Shown one piece after another: positions 1 through 6,695 of a DNA stretch of 6,695 nucleotides; positions within the stretch are counted from its first letter, which is position 1, and every line of letters begins with the position of its first letter. The position numbers and the translations under genes are program-made. Under the pieces are notes generated by a model. The model searched no databases, was not told where the DNA came from, and saw only the letters and a program-made list of their open reading frames with translations. Source of the DNA: Moraxellaceae bacterium (GTDB lineage Bacteria > Pseudomonadota > Gammaproteobacteria > Pseudomonadales > Ketobacteraceae); assembly GCA_002402125.1 (NCBI GenBank), contig NVVG01000107.1, positions 3,008 through 9,702 on the forward strand. The letters run 5' to 3'.

Positions 1-47
1 GCTTAAGCGAAGCTGAGCTACACTAAAAAGGTACCCTCAACAAAGCT

Positions 48-89
48 GCTAAGCACCGTATCTGTATACCAATTTCGCGGCTAAGCACC
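48..89. repeat. 10-bp direct repeat upstream of the kinase gene
   Basis: GCTAAGCACC occurs at 48-57 and again at 80-89, exactly 32 bp apart (about three helical turns). It lies 67-108 bp before the kinase ATG, where a regulator could bind. No GG-N10-GC sigma-54 element and no convincing sigma-70 pair was found in 1-155. The stretch shows no supported gene. Confidence 0.4.
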
Positions 90-155
90 CTTCTAGTCCG
101 TGGGCTTATGATATATACAACCTCGGCGTTCATCTAAGCTCTGAGATCGCGATTC

Positions 156-2702
156 ATGACCAATATTGACAATCAAGTTCCAACCTCCAAGCGACTTTCT
201 AATCGCAAACTATTCCTCGCACAGACAATCTGTATAGTTAGCGTTATTGCCATTACCTGTGCACTTTTTCTCTATACGACCATAAAAAACGATGTTGAAG
301 AAATCCAGCAAAAAGATTTCGACCGCAGAATGCAATCCTATGAGGCCTTGGTAAATCAATTTATCCAGTTAAACATGCATTTTGTTAGAGATGCATCCAC
401 ACACCCGGATATCGCGCAATCAGCAATACAACCACGTTTCATGAAGGAAATCTTGCACGACCATATGAGCCGCATCCAATTAATGGGTAAAGATGTGCAA
501 CTGACTTTGCTTGATGTTAAAGGTAAGATAATTCATTCAACATTAAGTAGCCCCGACTTCAATTACCAGGAACATGAGGGAATAAAAGGAATCATTGGCC
601 AAAGTCGAACTCAATATATTGGCATTCACTCTGACAAAGACCAATATTACATCACCTTTGCGGTCGGGATATCTATTAAAAACAAAACAAGAGGAGTACT
701 TCTTACAGAAATTCCTATCAGCGAAATGACAACCCATGCTCATTGGCCGACTACGATGGTAACCGATTATCTTGAATTTATTTATGATAATACTCTTATA
801 CTGTCCCTCGGGCCTGAAATTACCGACATGCCAAGAAAGGTTGTTGATCTACCTATCAAAGACTTTCAGCTTATTGGCCAACTAGATGGCAGTCATTATT
901 TGGATACGAGGAAAAGTATCCAAAAAAGAATTTTTATCGCTTTTATTACTTTTATGGTGTTATCGGCCTGCTCAGCGGTAGCTATATTTCGCCTAAAAGG
1001 TATATCGGTAATTAACCCTAGTGAGAAACCAGCTGACTCCAACACAACGTCAACTAAACCTCCTCCTCCCACTACTACATCCACTGCACCCGTTGCTAAC
1101 GACAACAGCTTAAACGCAAACCAAGCGAAATCGAGCTTTTTAGCGACAATGAGCCACGAGATTCGAACTCCAATGAACGCCGTTCTGGGTATTCTTGGTT
1201 TGTTACGAAATACTCAGCTCACAGAAGATCAACAGCGCCTTGTTCGAACAGGTAGAGACGCCGGCGAACTATTACTCACCATCATTAATGACATCCTAGA
1301 CTTCTCGAAAATGGAAGCCGATCGACTTCAGCTAGAGAATTCGGGCTTCAACTTACATGAAATGCTTGAATCTACAATACGGTTAATGAAATCCCAATCA
1401 GACCGCAAGCAAATCAATCTCGAACTCATCGTTCATCCTGAACTACCAAAATATGCCAAGGGAGATCCTGATAGGTTACGACAGATTTTGATTAATCTCA
1501 TCAGCAACGCAACAAAATTCACTACCGGCGGAGGTATCAAGGTTATCGCATCGTCAACTGGCCTCGACGACGATGATGAAGATTTTGAATTTTTATGTGC
1601 CATAAAGGATACAGGTATCGGCATCCCGGAAGAAATCAGGTCAACTCTGTTCGACGAATTTACGATGGCTGATCAAACTCACTCTAGACGATACGAGGGT
1701 ACGGGTTTAGGATTGGCAATCTGTAAACGCCTCGTATCGCTAATGAAAGGTAGAATAGATGTTTCAAGTGAAGTCGGTTCTGGTAGTACATTTACCTTTA
1801 CTGCGAAACTAGGATCAGCCGTAGGTTTAGAGGACGAAATTAACCGTGGAAATGAAGAACCTACATTAATCCCTAAACAAGGAACTAGAATTTTACTCGC
1901 AGAAGATAATCCTGCCAATCAGATGTTAGTAAAAATGATACTCGAAGATGTTGACCTATTTGTTGATACCGTGGCAGATGGTTCAGAAGCCGTTGAGGCG
2001 GTTAGATCCATCCCTTACGACGTTATACTAATGGATATATCAATGCCGGAAATGGACGGGATGACGGCAACAGCAGAAATACGCAGGCTTACCAATGGCG
2101 CAGAAAAAACGCCTATTATCGCGTTGACAGCCCACGTGCTATCTGGCGATAGAGAACGATTTATAGCGTCCGGAATGGATGACTATTTGACAAAACCGGT
2201 AGACCGGGAGAAAACCTTACACTGCATCGCAGTCTGGACAGGTTCGTCCATAAGACAAGATGCTACACCCGCAAACGACAGCGACAACATCATCCAACCG
2301 ACAATGACCAACTATCAAACACTACCGCAAGATTCGCAATTAGACCATGAGTCTGAAGCCGTATGTGAACTCACTCTTACTCAGTTAGTAAAAGACACCT
2401 CCGCTGAGGTCCTGCCAAAATTATTAACGTTATACATAAAAGACGCTCGGGTGAGAATGAAACGTATAGAGTTAGCCATCAAAGAAAATGATGCCAAAAT
2501 ACTAGAATTTGAGTCTCATACCATTGGAAGCAGCGCAGCGGCCCATGGCAATATGGCATTGCACGATATTGCAAGAGAGATTGAGAACCTCTGCATTGAG
2601 AAAAAAACGACTGAAGCCATGCAAAAAGCCACTGATTTATCCGTATTAGCTAGCGATTCCTTTACAAAGCTCGAACTACGGATAGAAATTGGGTTTACTT
2701 AA
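156..2702 (+). CDS. Hybrid sensor histidine kinase with receiver and HPt domains (SypF-like architecture)
   Basis: This is an inner-membrane hybrid histidine kinase of 848 residues. Membrane segments lie at about 20-43 and 259-280 and enclose a periplasmic sensor of roughly 215 residues. The sensor has no clear family motif, but its stretches around LLDVKGKI and a later YYITFAVGI look PAS/Cache-like. A Pro/Thr-rich linker (about 290-318) replaces a HAMP domain. The DHp domain carries MSHEIRTP with phospho-acceptor His334. The ATPase domain has the N box (N447, N451), DTGIGIP from D485 and GTGLGLAI from G515. The receiver (about 577-692) has E583/D584, phospho-Asp627, T658 and K680. A C-terminal HPt has His788 in SHTIGSSA. 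All catalytic residues are present, so a His-Asp-His relay is expected, most likely ending on Asp55 of the regulator encoded 84 bp downstream. The start is set by the first membrane segment; the ribosome site is weak (GAG, 10 nt upstream). The architecture matches SypF of Vibrio fischeri; the signal is unknown. Confidence 0.95.
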
Positions 2703-2786: not shown

Positions 2787-4211
2787 ATGCGAAAAAACCC
2801 CAGTGTATTAGTAGTTGAGGATTCTGAGCCGTTGGCACTGCTCTACCAAGAGTATTTAAAAGATGAATCAATCACACTTTCTATCGTTGATTCTGGAAAA
2901 GCAGCAATGGATTCTATTGCAAAAAACCCTCCTGACCTCCTTTTATTAGATCTAATGCTACCTGATATGAAAGGGCAGGAAATATTATCCTGGATTGTTA
3001 AAGAAGGGTTTCCAACAAGCACAATTGTCGTTACTGGCCATGGGTCTGTCGATGTCGCCGTCGATGTTATGCGTATAGGTGCGGAAGACTTTTTAGAGAA
3101 GCCAGTTTCAGCAGACAGGCTTAAGACATCCATCAGGAATCAGCTTGAGCGATCACGCTTGAAATATTTAGTTGAAGATTTCGAAAGCTCTTTTGAACGA
3201 CAAGAATATCATGGATTTATTGGTTCATGCTTACCAATGCAGGGAATCTATCGCATCATTGATGCAGCAGCCCCGAGCAAAGCCACCGTTTTTATAACTG
3301 GAGAAAGCGGCACTGGAAAAGAAGTTTGCGCTGAGGCAATTCATAAACAAGGAAATCGAGCAGAGAAAGAATTTGTAGCCATCAACTGTGGAGCAATACC
3401 AAAAGACCTGATGGAAAGTGAAATATTTGGTCATGTCAAAGGGGCATTTACTGGTGCGATATCAGATAGAATGGGGGCTGCGTCTTTGGCTGATGGCGGA
3501 ACGCTGTTTCTTGATGAAATTGGCGAAATGGATATTGATTTACAAACAAAACTATTACGCTTTGTTCAAACGGGCACATTTAAGAAAGTAGGTGGTAGCA
3601 AGACTGAAGAAGTTGATATTCGTTTCATCTGCGCCACTAATCGAGACCCATTGCAGGCAGTTGCCGATGGGCTTTTTAGAGAAGACCTATACTATCGTTT
3701 ACACGTTGTCCCTATTCATCTACCACCTCTACGTGAACGTGGTGACGATATTATCGCCATTGCAAACCGTTTTTTACATGAATTCGCGAGAGAGGAAAAT
3801 AAAAAGTTCGAAAGCTTTTCTCCGGAAGTAGAAATAATCTTTAGACGCTATAGCTGGCCAGGGAACATACGCCAACTACAAAACGTCATTCGAAATATAT
3901 TGGTGTTGCATGACGGTGTAAACATAACATTTGAACATTTGCCTCCGCCGCTAAACACATCAATAAATAAAGAAGATATCTATCAATTGGTACCAAAAGA
4001 AACATCTACTCCCCTACCCTCAAATACTGATATTTCCGCTAGTGAAGAAGATTCGACGCTCATCATTCCACTCTCCACAGTGGAAAGAGAGACCATTACT
4101 CGAGCTATCAACATATGTGAGGGCAACATACCGAAAGCTGCAGCTCTATTGGATGTAAGCCCATCTACCATATACCGGAAAAAACAATCCTGGGAGTCAG
4201 GCGGACATTAG
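2787..4211 (+). CDS. Sigma-54-dependent response regulator of the LuxO/SypG family
   Basis: This 474-residue NtrC-class activator has a receiver (1-120), an AAA+ domain (about 146-385) and a Fis-type helix-turn-helix (about 430-468). The receiver shows E11/D12, phospho-Asp55, T83 and K105. The AAA+ domain shows Walker A GESGTGKE from G172, the sigma-54 contact loop GAFTGA at 219-224, Walker B LFLDE ending D243/E244, FREDLYYRL with R298, and WPGNIRQLQN from W357. From memory, FIGSxxxMQxxYRxID, then SKA, FITGESGTGKEVCAEAIH and DLQTKLLRF are nearly those of Vibrio LuxO, closer than to NtrC or the PrsR regulators of PEP-CTERM loci. The helix-turn-helix has EGNIPKAAALLDVSPSTIYRK. It should bind upstream enhancers and drive sigma-54 polymerase, here most plausibly at the three -24/-12 elements in this window. 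The neighbouring kinase is its likely partner. The ribosome site is weak (GAG, 8 nt before ATG). LuxO and SypG cannot be told apart here; the sugar genes favour a SypG-like role. Confidence 0.96.
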   Translation: MRKNPSVLVVEDSEPLALLYQEYLKDESITLSIVDSGKAAMDSIAKNPPDLLLLDLMLPDMKGQEILSWIVKEGFPTSTIVVTGHGSVDVAVDVMRIGAEDFLEKPVSADRLKTSIRNQLERSRLKYLVEDFESSFERQEYHGFIGSCLPMQGIYRIIDAAAPSKATVFITGESGTGKEVCAEAIHKQGNRAEKEFVAINCGAIPKDLMESEIFGHVKGAFTGAISDRMGAASLADGGTLFLDEIGEMDIDLQTKLLRFVQTGTFKKVGGSKTEEVDIRFICATNRDPLQAVADGLFREDLYYRLHVVPIHLPPLRERGDDIIAIANRFLHEFAREENKKFESFSPEVEIIFRRYSWPGNIRQLQNVIRNILVLHDGVNITFEHLPPPLNTSINKEDIYQLVPKETSTPLPSNTDISASEEDSTLIIPLSTVERETITRAINICEGNIPKAAALLDVSPSTIYRKKQSWESGGH

Positions 4212-5141
4212 CGGCGGATCGGTACCAACGACTTCACACTCTAACAAAGCCCGCAGACCTCTAATTAATGGTTGTTTAGCGGTAACCCCTAGTATTTGAG
4301 CGGCATATCGCGGGTCCCCCACGGAGACGCGCACATCTGCTTTACGTTGTGGGCCGTTCTCAATTGGAAGCTGAACACCACTAATTGCCATCATTATTTT
4401 AGCCAGTTTCTTGATACTAACCGTTTTCCCGGTACAAACATTATACACCGATGGCACACGCCCTATCTTTTCCAGTGCCACCCTAAGAAATACAATAACA
4501 TCATCAATATGTACAAAATCCCTCACCTGTTGCCCATCGCCGTAGATTGTTAACGGTTTTAAATTTCGAATGCTGTCCTTAAATTGACTAATGACACCTG
4601 AATGTGGCGAATCAAAACCTTGTCTATCTCCATATACATTAAATAGGCGAACCCCAGCAGTAGGCACCCCGTGTTCCAATGTAGCGACTCGAGCATATAA
4701 CTCCGTTCCAAGCTTATTAGCGCCATAGACAGTGATGGGCCTCTCCATTGAATCCTCAGACAGTGGCATATCCGCATTATCACCATACACCGATGAGGAA
4801 GTTGCATACACAACCGGTGTAGAATTTTTCCTTGCAGCATCAAATATATTTACGCTACCAGTAAGATTAACCGAATGTATAGATTCTAGGCTTCTTACTG
4901 GTGGATGAATTGAGGGGACGGCTGCAAGATGAAAGCAGGCATCAATATTCCACATAGATGTCCGCACTACATCTTTGTCGCAAACACTACCTACAATTAG
5001 GTCGCAATTATTGGGTATTCTAGAGCGATTCCCTGTCGACAGATCATCAAGCACGCGTACAGAATGACCATCTTTCAGGAGGTTCTCAACTAGATACGAA
5101 CCAATAAAACCACACCCACCAGTTACAAGATAATTTGCCAT
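4197..5141 (-). CDS. NAD-dependent nucleotide-sugar epimerase/dehydratase (extended SDR, GalE/WbpP-like)
   Basis: This cytoplasmic extended short-chain dehydrogenase/reductase of 314 residues probably epimerises or otherwise alters a UDP-sugar that feeds polysaccharide synthesis. It shows the Rossmann NAD motif TGGCGFIG (G8, G11, G14), an adenosine-ribose acidic pair after strand 2 (VLDDLSTGN), the catalytic serine region SSSVYG (S115-S117), the YxxxK pair Y139/K143, the substrate loop RLFNVYG and RDFVHIDD from R207. Length and motifs fit UDP-glucose or UDP-GlcNAc 4-epimerases, but a dehydratase or decarboxylase cannot be excluded. In-frame GTG at 5150 and ATG at 5147 lie upstream, but ATG 5141 is preferred. 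It gives the standard MANYLVTGG beginning and has AGGTGA five bases upstream, and the other two starts would fall inside that site. A sigma-54 element lies 38-54 bp upstream. The gene converges on and overlaps the response regulator by 15 bp. Confidence 0.92.
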   Translation of the reverse strand: MANYLVTGGCGFIGSYLVENLLKDGHSVRVLDDLSTGNRSRIPNNCDLIVGSVCDKDVVRTSMWNIDACFHLAAVPSIHPPVRSLESIHSVNLTGSVNIFDAARKNSTPVVYATSSSVYGDNADMPLSEDSMERPITVYGANKLGTELYARVATLEHGVPTAGVRLFNVYGDRQGFDSPHSGVISQFKDSIRNLKPLTIYGDGQQVRDFVHIDDVIVFLRVALEKIGRVPSVYNVCTGKTVSIKKLAKIMMAISGVQLPIENGPQRKADVRVSVGDPRYAAQILGVTAKQPLIRGLRALLECEVVGTDPPLMSA

Positions 5142-5146
5142 GACCA

Positions 5147-5152
5147 TCACCT
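5147..5152 (-). promoter_or_regulatory. Ribosome binding site deciding the epimerase start
   Basis: AGGTGA on the minus strand lies five bases before ATG 5141 and pairs well with the 3' end of 16S rRNA. It covers the two alternative upstream starts (GTG 5150 and ATG 5147 overlap or abut it), which argues that ATG 5141 is used. Confidence 0.7.
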
Positions 5153-5180
5153 ATTTCAATTGTTATTACATGTGAAATAG
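5151..5180. repeat. Perfect 8-bp inverted repeat at the epimerase promoter
   Basis: CTATTTCA (5151-5158) and its exact reverse complement TGAAATAG (5173-5180) flank 14 bases. The outer arm reaches the -12 GC of the minus-strand sigma-54 element and the inner arm touches the ribosome site. The predicted transcript start (about 5168) falls between the arms, so a leader hairpin would not form from that start. A protein operator is more likely than an RNA structure. Confidence 0.5.
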
Positions 5181-5195
5181 CAAACCGCATGCCAA
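5179..5195 (-). promoter_or_regulatory. Sigma-54 (-24/-12) promoter for the epimerase gene
   Basis: Read on the minus strand this is TTGGCATGCGGTTTGCT, against the consensus YTGGCACGRNNNTTGCW. The invariant GG (5193-5192) and GC (5181-5180) are exactly 10 bases apart, as sigma-54 requires. Predicted transcription starts near 5168, giving a leader of about 27 nt before the ATG at 5141. The match is by eye and not tested. Confidence 0.8.
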
Positions 5196-5277
5196 CTGGA
5201 AACCTAATATTTTCAAGCCGATCTATAACCGTTGACGAAAAACAAAACATTCTATTAGCTAAAAAACGCGAGATGCG

Positions 5278-5290
5278 TTGCGAACTGCAA
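5278..5290. promoter_or_regulatory. LuxO-type enhancer dyad, site 1
   Basis: TTGCGAACTGCAA matches the Vibrio LuxO site TTGCA-N3-TGCAA at 9 of 10 defined positions. Its centre is about 96 bp upstream of the predicted glycosyltransferase start and about 116 bp upstream of the predicted epimerase start. Both are workable distances for a sigma-54 activator. The regulator encoded at 2787-4211 is the obvious candidate to bind it, by inference from family. Confidence 0.65.
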
Positions 5291-5307
5291 TGAAATAATG
5301 ATCTCCA

Positions 5308-5320
5308 TTGCATAATGCAG
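5308..5320. promoter_or_regulatory. LuxO-type enhancer dyad, site 2
   Basis: TTGCATAATGCAG matches TTGCA-N3-TGCAA at 9 of 10 defined positions. Its centre is 30 bp from that of site 1, close to three helical turns, so both sites would face the same side of the DNA, as paired enhancers commonly do. It lies about 66 bp upstream of the predicted glycosyltransferase start. Confidence 0.65.
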
Positions 5321-5352
5321 CCAAATAACTCTCCTAGAGTCAGCTTTTGGTA

Positions 5353-5369
5353 TCGGCACTAACATTGCT
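5353..5369 (+). promoter_or_regulatory. Sigma-54 (-24/-12) promoter for the glycosyltransferase gene
   Basis: The sequence TCGGCACTAACATTGCT keeps GGCAC and TTGCT, with GG (5355-5356) and GC (5367-5368) exactly 10 bases apart. Departures from consensus are C for T just before GG and T for G after GGCAC. Predicted start of transcription is near 5380, 31 bases before the ATG. Confidence 0.82.
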
Positions 5370-5410
5370 TTTAAATTAGTTATCTTTCTTTATTTAGTAG
5401 GAGTCTCATT

Positions 5411-6433
5411 ATGAAATCACCCAAAAATACTATATGGATACTATTGGATAGTCGAAAACCTGGAGGCATTGAATCCCACACATTTGAACTTGCAAAAGGT
5501 TTAGTTCGATTCGGAAAAAGAGTTGTGGTCGTTTTCCTTAATAACTATGGTCATCATCCACTAAGGTCCTTACTAATAAGCCAGGGTATATCAACCATAT
5601 CTTTAGATGGATCGTTTTTCTCCCTGTATAAAAAGGCCAACCAAAAAAAACCCGCCATTATTCATACTCATGGGTATAAAGCCGGTATATACGGTAGAAT
5701 TGTGGCAACAACATTAGATATACCTGTAGTTTCTACCTATCATGCTGGAGAAATATCAAAGGGAAAACTTGCCATTTACACTTGGCTTGATCGTTCCACG
5801 GCAGCATTAGCCGACAAGGTTTATACCGTTAGTAAATCTATTAAAGAAAACATTCCAACAAAATCAGAAATAGTAAATAACTTCATCGATACCAGAAACA
5901 TTAAAGAGTCACACGGAAACCAAATTGCTTTTGTTGGCAGACTTAGCCAGGAAAAAGGTCCAGACATTTTTGTTAAACTTGCATCCATGTTCCCTCGCCA
6001 TCACTTTCACATTTATGGTGATGGTCCCTGTATAAAGGAATTACAATCGAACGCCACACCAAACGTTGTATTTCATGGGCAAAAAAATACTATGAGCGAC
6101 CATTGGAAGAATATTGGATTATTGGTGATGCCATCTCGCCATGAAGGCATGCCTTTGGCAGCATTAGAAGCAATGGCCCATGGGATTCCAGTAATCGCCT
6201 CCGACGTGGGAGCACTTAGTCAATTGATAGAACATGGAGAAAACGGATGGATCAATCAACCTGGAAACATTGAGGAAACGAGAAAACTGATTTTTTACTG
6301 GTTAACTATGTCACCTGACAACCAAAATAAGATAAAAACTGAAGCCAGATATACAATTAACGCCAACTTTTCTCAAGAAAAGGTTATTCCTAAACTCATA
6401 AAACAATATCATAAACTCTCTCATCAATTGTAA
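5411..6433 (+). CDS. GT4-family glycosyltransferase (GT-B fold)
   Basis: This 340-residue protein is a retaining glycosyltransferase that would add a sugar from a nucleotide donor to a growing polysaccharide or lipid-linked repeat at the cytoplasmic face of the inner membrane. The N-terminal Rossmann domain has the GGIE glycine-rich motif (18-21), a conserved IIHTHGYKAG strand and the STYHAGE loop. The C-terminal domain begins at FVGRLSQEKG, with R177 and K182 expected to bind donor phosphates, followed by YGDGP (202-206) and the EX7E motif E245/E253 inside HEGMPLAALEAMAHG. There is no signal peptide or membrane span. The acceptor and donor cannot be read from sequence. The start has a good ribosome site, AGGAG at 5399-5403, seven bases before ATG. 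A sigma-54 element at 5353-5369 would give a leader of about 31 nt. The gene stands alone in its transcription unit as far as the window shows: 140 bp and another promoter separate it from the next. Confidence 0.94.
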   Translation: MKSPKNTIWILLDSRKPGGIESHTFELAKGLVRFGKRVVVVFLNNYGHHPLRSLLISQGISTISLDGSFFSLYKKANQKKPAIIHTHGYKAGIYGRIVATTLDIPVVSTYHAGEISKGKLAIYTWLDRSTAALADKVYTVSKSIKENIPTKSEIVNNFIDTRNIKESHGNQIAFVGRLSQEKGPDIFVKLASMFPRHHFHIYGDGPCIKELQSNATPNVVFHGQKNTMSDHWKNIGLLVMPSRHEGMPLAALEAMAHGIPVIASDVGALSQLIEHGENGWINQPGNIEETRKLIFYWLTMSPDNQNKIKTEARYTINANFSQEKVIPKLIKQYHKLSHQL

Positions 6434-6439
6434 TTTGAG

Positions 6440-6452
6440 TCGCAAACTGCAT
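6440..6452. promoter_or_regulatory. Weaker LuxO-type dyad, site 3
   Basis: TCGCAAACTGCAT matches TTGCA-N3-TGCAA at 8 of 10 defined positions and shares the AACTGCA core with site 1 (10 of 13 bases identical overall). It is centred about 105 bp upstream of the predicted sigma-54 start for the exported-protein gene. It begins seven bases after the glycosyltransferase stop codon. No second site at a 30-bp phase was found here. Confidence 0.5.
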
Positions 6453-6523: not shown

Positions 6524-6540
6524 TTGGATCGTTTTTTGCT
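6524..6540 (+). promoter_or_regulatory. Sigma-54 (-24/-12) promoter for the exported-protein gene
   Basis: The sequence TTGGATCGTTTTTTGCT has GG (6526-6527) and GC (6538-6539) exactly 10 bases apart, a full TTGCT, and a T-rich spacer. The -24 half departs from consensus at two positions (AT in place of CA). Predicted start of transcription is near 6551, 23 bases before ATG. Confidence 0.72.
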
Positions 6541-6573: not shown

Positions 6574-6695
6574 ATGCGACATATACTAATACTATTCAGC
6601 ATAGCCTTATTAATATCAACAACCACTTATGCGGAAATACAATGGCTATGGGTAGGAGAAAATAATACTGCCGAAACACACCCTGAAGATAACTA
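6574..6695 (+). CDS. Exported protein of unknown function, 5' end only
   Basis: Forty codons are visible before the window ends. The reading starts MRHILILFSIALLISTTTYA, a textbook Sec signal peptide: one basic residue near the N terminus, a hydrophobic core and a T-Y-A end that signal peptidase I would cut before EIQWLWVG. There is no cysteine, so it is not a lipoprotein. The visible mature part is acidic and polar (about 20 residues) and matches no family I can name. The last two bases are TA, so the next codon is either Tyr or a stop; the protein may be long or only 40 residues. GGAG at 6563-6566, seven bases before ATG, supports the start. A sigma-54 element at 6524-6540 and a LuxO-like dyad at 6440-6452 lie upstream, so it probably belongs to the same regulon as the epimerase and glycosyltransferase. 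Confidence 0.75.
   Translation, partial: MRHILILFSIALLISTTTYAEIQWLWVGENNTAETHPEDN

Follow-up and report, generated by a model that had tools for sequence, protein, structure and literature searches.

Paired LuxO-like dyads between two divergent predicted sigma-54 promoters beside a LuxO-type regulator in a Moraxellaceae bacterium

Introduction

In E. coli, an FhlA site is shared between hyc and hyp. The available text of PMC8743547 gives hycA and hypA as divergent RpoN targets. A comparable case is that of orp1/orp2 of Desulfovibrio vulgaris, for which the available part of PMC3897727 describes how the activator DVU2106 synchronises two divergent sigma-54 operons via palindromes; it reports two palindromic sites and a need for IHF. 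In the LuxO/qrr system of Vibrionaceae, paired sites are found at about 60-120 bp from sigma-54 promoters, and a stricter LuxO-site consensus, TTGCAWWWTGCAA, is quoted in the available text of PMC10162802. The same text places the Vibrio fischeri polysaccharide locus syp, which is associated with an Hpt-bearing hybrid kinase (SypF) and a sigma-54 regulator (SypG), under sigma-54 promoters, and adds that SypG also acts via LuxO dyads at qrr1. In the open-access titles and abstract beginnings covered by our literature search, no LuxO-type sites were described outside Vibrionaceae.

Gene setting and the LuxO-type regulator

The window, that is, the whole stretch of 6,695 nucleotides analysed here, harbors a kinase gene, a regulator gene and two divergent genes with a pair of LuxO-like dyads between them (Table 1). 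The kinase ends C-terminally in a receiver followed by an Hpt domain, and the likely start of the epimerase gene, judged by eye, is at 5141 (MANYLV). Around the kinase and the regulator were found the epimerase, three glycosyltransferase-like genes and an LruC-domain protein, and the cluster also contains the beginning of a membrane-protein gene, flippase-like by eye.

Table 1. Coordinates of the features discussed, counted from the first letter of the window
Feature	Sequence	Position	Strand	Remarks
Hybrid histidine kinase		156-2702	+	Pfam HisKA, HATPase_c, receiver, Hpt; predicted phosphodonor
LuxO-type sigma-54 response regulator		2787-4211	+	Pfam receiver, AAA+, Fis-type HTH; dyad binding predicted
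NAD-dependent sugar epimerase/dehydratase-like gene		4197-5150	-	Pfam PF01370; one arm of the divergent pair
Predicted sigma-54 -24/-12 element	TGGCATGCGGTTTGC	5180-5194	-	Epimerase gene; one mismatch; start near 5168
Dyad 1	TTGCGAACTGCAA	5278-5290	.	One mismatch from TTGCANNNTGCAA; overlaps a 25-base stretch common to the G152 gap
Dyad 2	TTGCATAATGCAG	5308-5320	.	One mismatch from TTGCANNNTGCAA
Predicted sigma-54 -24/-12 element	CGGCACTAACATTGC	5354-5368	+	Glycosyltransferase gene; one mismatch; start near 5380
Family 4 glycosyltransferase-like gene		5411-6433	+	Pfam PF13692, PF00534, PF13439; other arm of the divergent pair
Weaker dyad	TCGCAAACTGCAT	6440-6452	.	Before the LruC-domain gene; two mismatches
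Possible sigma-54 element	TGGATCGTTTTTTGC	6525-6539	+	LruC-domain gene starting at 6574; two mismatches

It had been claimed that the window encodes a LuxO-like regulator, and both the domains of the protein and its helix region GNIPKAAALLDVSPSTIYRKKQ, which keeps 10 of the 11 critical LuxO residues, agree with this. According to the available text of PMC11407668, these are the residues at which an alanine change abolished the constitutive activity of V. cholerae LuxO; the register of the reading helix was inferred from three Vibrionaceae LuxO proteins, each of which scores 11/11 and with which the regulator shares 53-56% identity. The assignment could be refined, since the regulator scored 645.1 bits against the NCBIfam LuxO model, under the equivalog cut-off of 800, and fell outside the LuxO clade. 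In a tree of 38 regulators, whose deeper branching order is not settled and several rows of which are long, it was placed in an 18-row clade (98/99) without Vibrionaceae LuxO rows, while the three Vibrionaceae LuxO rows formed a clade of their own (100/99). By these sequence comparisons the protein is a sister of LuxO, and its assignment as a LuxO orthologue was rejected. The PEP-CTERM-box response regulator model TIGR02915 gave 361.8 bits, short of its cut-off of 502.6. The genome holds only one member of the regulator family at E 1e-150 or better.

The resemblance to LuxO/qrr comprises the dyad, the reading helix, sigma-54 promoters at about 60-120 bp and the pairing of the sites. In contrast, no Qrr was found on the contig of the window by a search that finds Qrr beside a dyad in all three Vibrionaceae control loci, and the targets here would be genes that encode proteins, in a cluster predicted to make a polysaccharide. 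A search of the organism's own genome for Qrr (RF00378) likewise gave no match, with 150 of the 449 candidates scored and the controls of that search silent too, and no Rfam family reached threshold in the window. As for SypG, an Hpt-bearing kinase is encoded alongside the regulator and polysaccharide-type genes adjoin it, so that, likened by gene setting, the regulator resembles SypF-SypG more closely than Qrr quorum sensing. Unlike at syp, the promoters are divergent and would share their sites, and both dyads of the pair differ from the SypG motif TTCTCANNNTGMDWN by four mismatches each, for which reason a SypG-type site was rejected for them; the weaker dyad at 6440 differs from this motif by two.

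The LruC-domain protein (TIGR04456, PF16130, PF13448) of the predicted polysaccharide cluster was observed at 6574-6695 of the window (9581-11461 in the coordinates of its locus, L016), and a similar protein occupies the same place, by eye, in the same-genus genome G004. The last ORF of L016 (14520-15053) is flippase-like at its start and closes, where the contig stops, with a stretch weakly resembling an FMN reductase, which may be an assembly artefact.

The dyads and the predicted promoters

The original prediction, that two dyads each miss the Vibrio LuxO site by one base and have centres 30 bp apart, was reproduced in positions, mismatches and spacing, the centres being at 5284 and 5314. 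These are the only sites of the window at one mismatch or less to TTGCANNNTGCAA; relative to the stricter TTGCAWWWTGCAA, dyad 1 has two mismatches because its centre is AAC. At two mismatches or less, the window contains 10 sites against a shuffle mean of 4.37, a number reached in 4 of 200 shuffles. Within the 260-bp gap (5151-5410), the two sites compare with 0.034 expected at one mismatch or less (p 0.0003, 4000 dinucleotide shuffles). The paired pattern TGCDNNNTGCAN{6,36}TGCDNNNTGCA occurs at two places in the 4,620,605-base assembly, namely the window and contig C23, and its reversed control at none; a dyad with a sigma-54 element downstream of it occurs at three places in the genome, of which only that of the window is outside a coding frame. 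The weaker dyad at 6440 was not significant at two mismatches (p 0.16), and its core GCANNNTGC gave p 0.034.

Exactly two sigma-54-type elements with GG and GC in register were found in the window at one mismatch or less, and these flank the dyads and point outwards, which places an in-register -24/-12 element downstream of the sites in both directions. With the start set 13 bases from the -12 element, the dyad centres lie at -66/-96 of the glycosyltransferase start and at -116/-146 of the epimerase start, the distances that had been given approximately before. This rule was calibrated on two Vibrionaceae controls, L041 and L046, in which the computed starts (7826 and 7744) coincide exactly with the base at which the Qrr RNA found by Infernal begins, and the centre of a perfect dyad lies at -96 and -117, respectively. 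The third control, L043, has a Qrr and a one-mismatch dyad, and the scan gave no sigma-54 element there.

The interval that separates the dyads from the epimerase promoter contains no other site at up to three mismatches, except for two overlapping that promoter. The next promoter of the same cluster (TGGCGCACTGATTGC near L016 12100, by eye) is without a dyad. The stretch before the kinase gene (window 1-155) contains neither a sigma-54 element at three mismatches nor a dyad at two, the one exception being a two-mismatch site within the start of the kinase gene, so the kinase and regulator pair does not look self-regulated. The gap also lacks an IHF-like site at one mismatch or less, on which ground IHF-assisted looping was rejected as a necessary part of the mechanism. 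The locus differs in this from orp1/orp2, and also in having one pair of sites between the promoters.

Syntenic gaps in related genomes

The kinase, the regulator, the convergent epimerase and the divergent glycosyltransferase are kept together in G001 and G004, of the same genus, and in G152, from another family of the order. In G003, the kinase, regulator and epimerase are kept and the contig ends in the gap, and the fourth same-genus genome, G002 (84% complete), gave no regulator match. Outward sigma-54 elements flank the three complete gaps, with 2+1 mismatches in G001, 0+2 in G004 and 1+3 in G152. Dyads recur at these homologous loci, at which the original prediction could be checked. When scanned at up to three mismatches, the gap of G001 shows a run of four dyads, the best with one mismatch, that of G004 three, the best with two, and that of G152 one perfect dyad at 108 and 110 bases from its two starts. 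Taken singly, not all gaps are significant: for one-mismatch sites, p was 0.095 in G001, 1.0 in G004 and 0.046 in G152, the perfect site of G152 giving 0.002. The G004 dyads are weak (p 0.29 at two mismatches), and the three GCANNNTGC cores of that gap gave p 0.0003.

By blastn, the gaps have only short islands in common: 25 bases (84%) that cover a dyad in the window and G152, 15 bases that cover a dyad in G001 and in G152, and 15 bases, themselves a sigma-54 element, in G001 and G004. A further site, TAGCATTATGCAA at L037 10117, straddles a gene end, and the G001_GT2 region, cut there, was thus counted without a dyad. Searches with the regulator gave matches in at least 3 of 244 and at least 3 of 369 genomes (own included, few candidates being scored per genome), and in 1 of 54 and 1 of 6. 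The glycosyltransferase-based search for related loci confirmed none of 52 stretches, and the stretch fetched from relative G021 (L039) contained no such regulator.

Association of dyads with LuxO-type regulators

Intergenic dyads at one mismatch or less were counted in 87 loci against a first-order Markov expectation, a locus being classed as LuxO-type when its regulator carried the helix SPSTIYRK or SPSTLYRK. The control loci came from the regulator-alignment search, 80 among the matches listed, most with other helices; the class of other loci also takes in a slightly different helix (L040, APSTIYRK) and a locus whose regulator was not picked up (L094). The 16 LuxO-type loci contained 19 dyads versus 1.57 expected, and the 71 others 3 versus 3.27. 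Without the window's own locus and the three control loci from Vibrionaceae, 12 dyads versus 0.83 expected remained in 12 loci. Five of the 16 LuxO-type loci had no intergenic dyad at this threshold. Dyads are therefore enriched beside LuxO-type regulators and not beside the other loci examined.

Divergent sigma-54 pairs were found in gaps at five places among 20 LuxO-type loci, with dyads between the elements in all five (four at one mismatch or less), versus two places among the 71 other loci, with dyads between in neither. The G152 pair, whose second element has three mismatches, was for that reason not counted among these five. One of the five belongs to L045, a Rhizobiaceae-group MAG (alphaproteobacterium), where the divergent pair is found at non-homologous genes; in another, G591 (L128), the kinase and regulator are preceded by two genes with one dyad between them. 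It was observed in L045 (11628-11917) that three dyads, one of them perfect, are spaced 28 and 21 bp between the divergent elements, flanked by mannose-1-phosphate guanylyltransferase-like and PilZ-like genes (by eye), and that a LuxO-type regulator adjoins.

A second set, of ten loci, came from plasmids that encode relatives of the regulator. A mechanical count gave no dyad versus 0.42 expected in the ten loci; in this GC-rich DNA, mechanically defined frames hid real gaps, and the regulator was recognised in just six of the ten. With gene tables, usable for five of the ten, three dyads were counted versus 0.10 expected, a post hoc count made once the zero count and the L148 pair were known. 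In L148 (3925-4012, a Paroceanicella plasmid), two dyads 30 bp apart lie at -93/-63 of a two-mismatch sigma-54 element and precede a run of genes with kinases and the regulator itself, as if self-regulated. The single dyad of L142 (Azospirillum) is found in its sister L144 only at two mismatches, is absent from two others and has no good promoter, and is probably due to chance.

Proposed mechanism and alternative explanations

In the mechanism that we propose, the kinase would pass phosphate through its own receiver and Hpt domains to the regulator, dimers of which would occupy the two dyads, placed on almost the same side of the helix, and promote assembly of the AAA+ ring. By looping, this ring could reach either promoter and open the sigma-54 polymerase, and both arms of the predicted polysaccharide cluster would then come on together. 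The dyads are very probably upstream activating sites of the 2787-4211 regulator, and to the reading in which the one pair serves both predicted promoters, glycosyltransferase and epimerase, we assign a probability of about 0.78.

That the regulator does use the dyads, but for the glycosyltransferase promoter alone, with the epimerase promoter weak or driven from elsewhere, appears unlikely. The sites are indeed nearer the glycosyltransferase promoter, and the L148 pair, with the same spacing, would serve one promoter; however, the epimerase-side element is an equally good one-mismatch match with no better site on its side, the single dyad of G152 lies midway between two outward elements, and dyads stand between all five divergent pairs at LuxO-type loci. 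It is quite improbable that another regulator reading a similar palindrome uses these sites while the neighbouring one acts elsewhere: the genome does hold many further candidate matches of the sigma-54 activator kind, but the dyads go with the LuxO-type helix from locus to locus, and at the syntenic gaps, too, the regulator is encoded alongside. In AT-rich DNA, a palindrome of 10 positions would find near-matches by chance, and single dyads are common (185 genome-wide at one mismatch or less), a frame of at least 90 codons enclosing the listed dyad in 12 of the 15 loci fetched first and a sigma-54 element lying near in one of the 15 (L015). Chance is hardly tenable for the pair itself and was rejected, given the local p of 0.0003, the two paired places in the genome and the recurrence at related loci.

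Since the same layout stands beside such regulators in other bacteria, the shared enhancer arrangement is likely to be widespread and related to the quorum-sensing switch of Vibrio, here probably used for polysaccharide genes. More tentatively, and at somewhat less than even odds, the LuxO dyad may be no invention of Vibrio quorum sensing: a horizontally spread module of activator, dyad and sigma-54 promoter would control polysaccharide and surface genes in Gammaproteobacteria and Alphaproteobacteria, often with one array for two divergent promoters, and the Vibrio Qrr circuit would be one special use of it. If so, the DNA code of LuxO would not be confined to quorum sensing, and for many LuxO-like regulators that are still uncharacterised the targets could be read off the sequence. 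The G152 gap, with its single dyad, would then offer a clean setting in which to ask whether one sigma-54 enhancer can drive two promoters by looping either way.

Other candidate targets

The C23 site (L015 1501-1585, G000:C23) comprises four dyads at two mismatches or less, starting at 1501, 1523, 1544 and 1573, at least 189 bp from a sigma-54-type element (1312, minus strand) before a lineage-specific, secreted-looking protein of 186 aa. This protein had no match in four same-genus genomes and one weak match among the other 52 genomes. The site is a candidate second target of the regulator. In Photobacterium, four overlapping dyads at L046 11458-11578, a stretch in which no Qrr was found, lie close to a sigma-54-type element that precedes an ORF of 195 aa, a possible non-Qrr target of LuxO.
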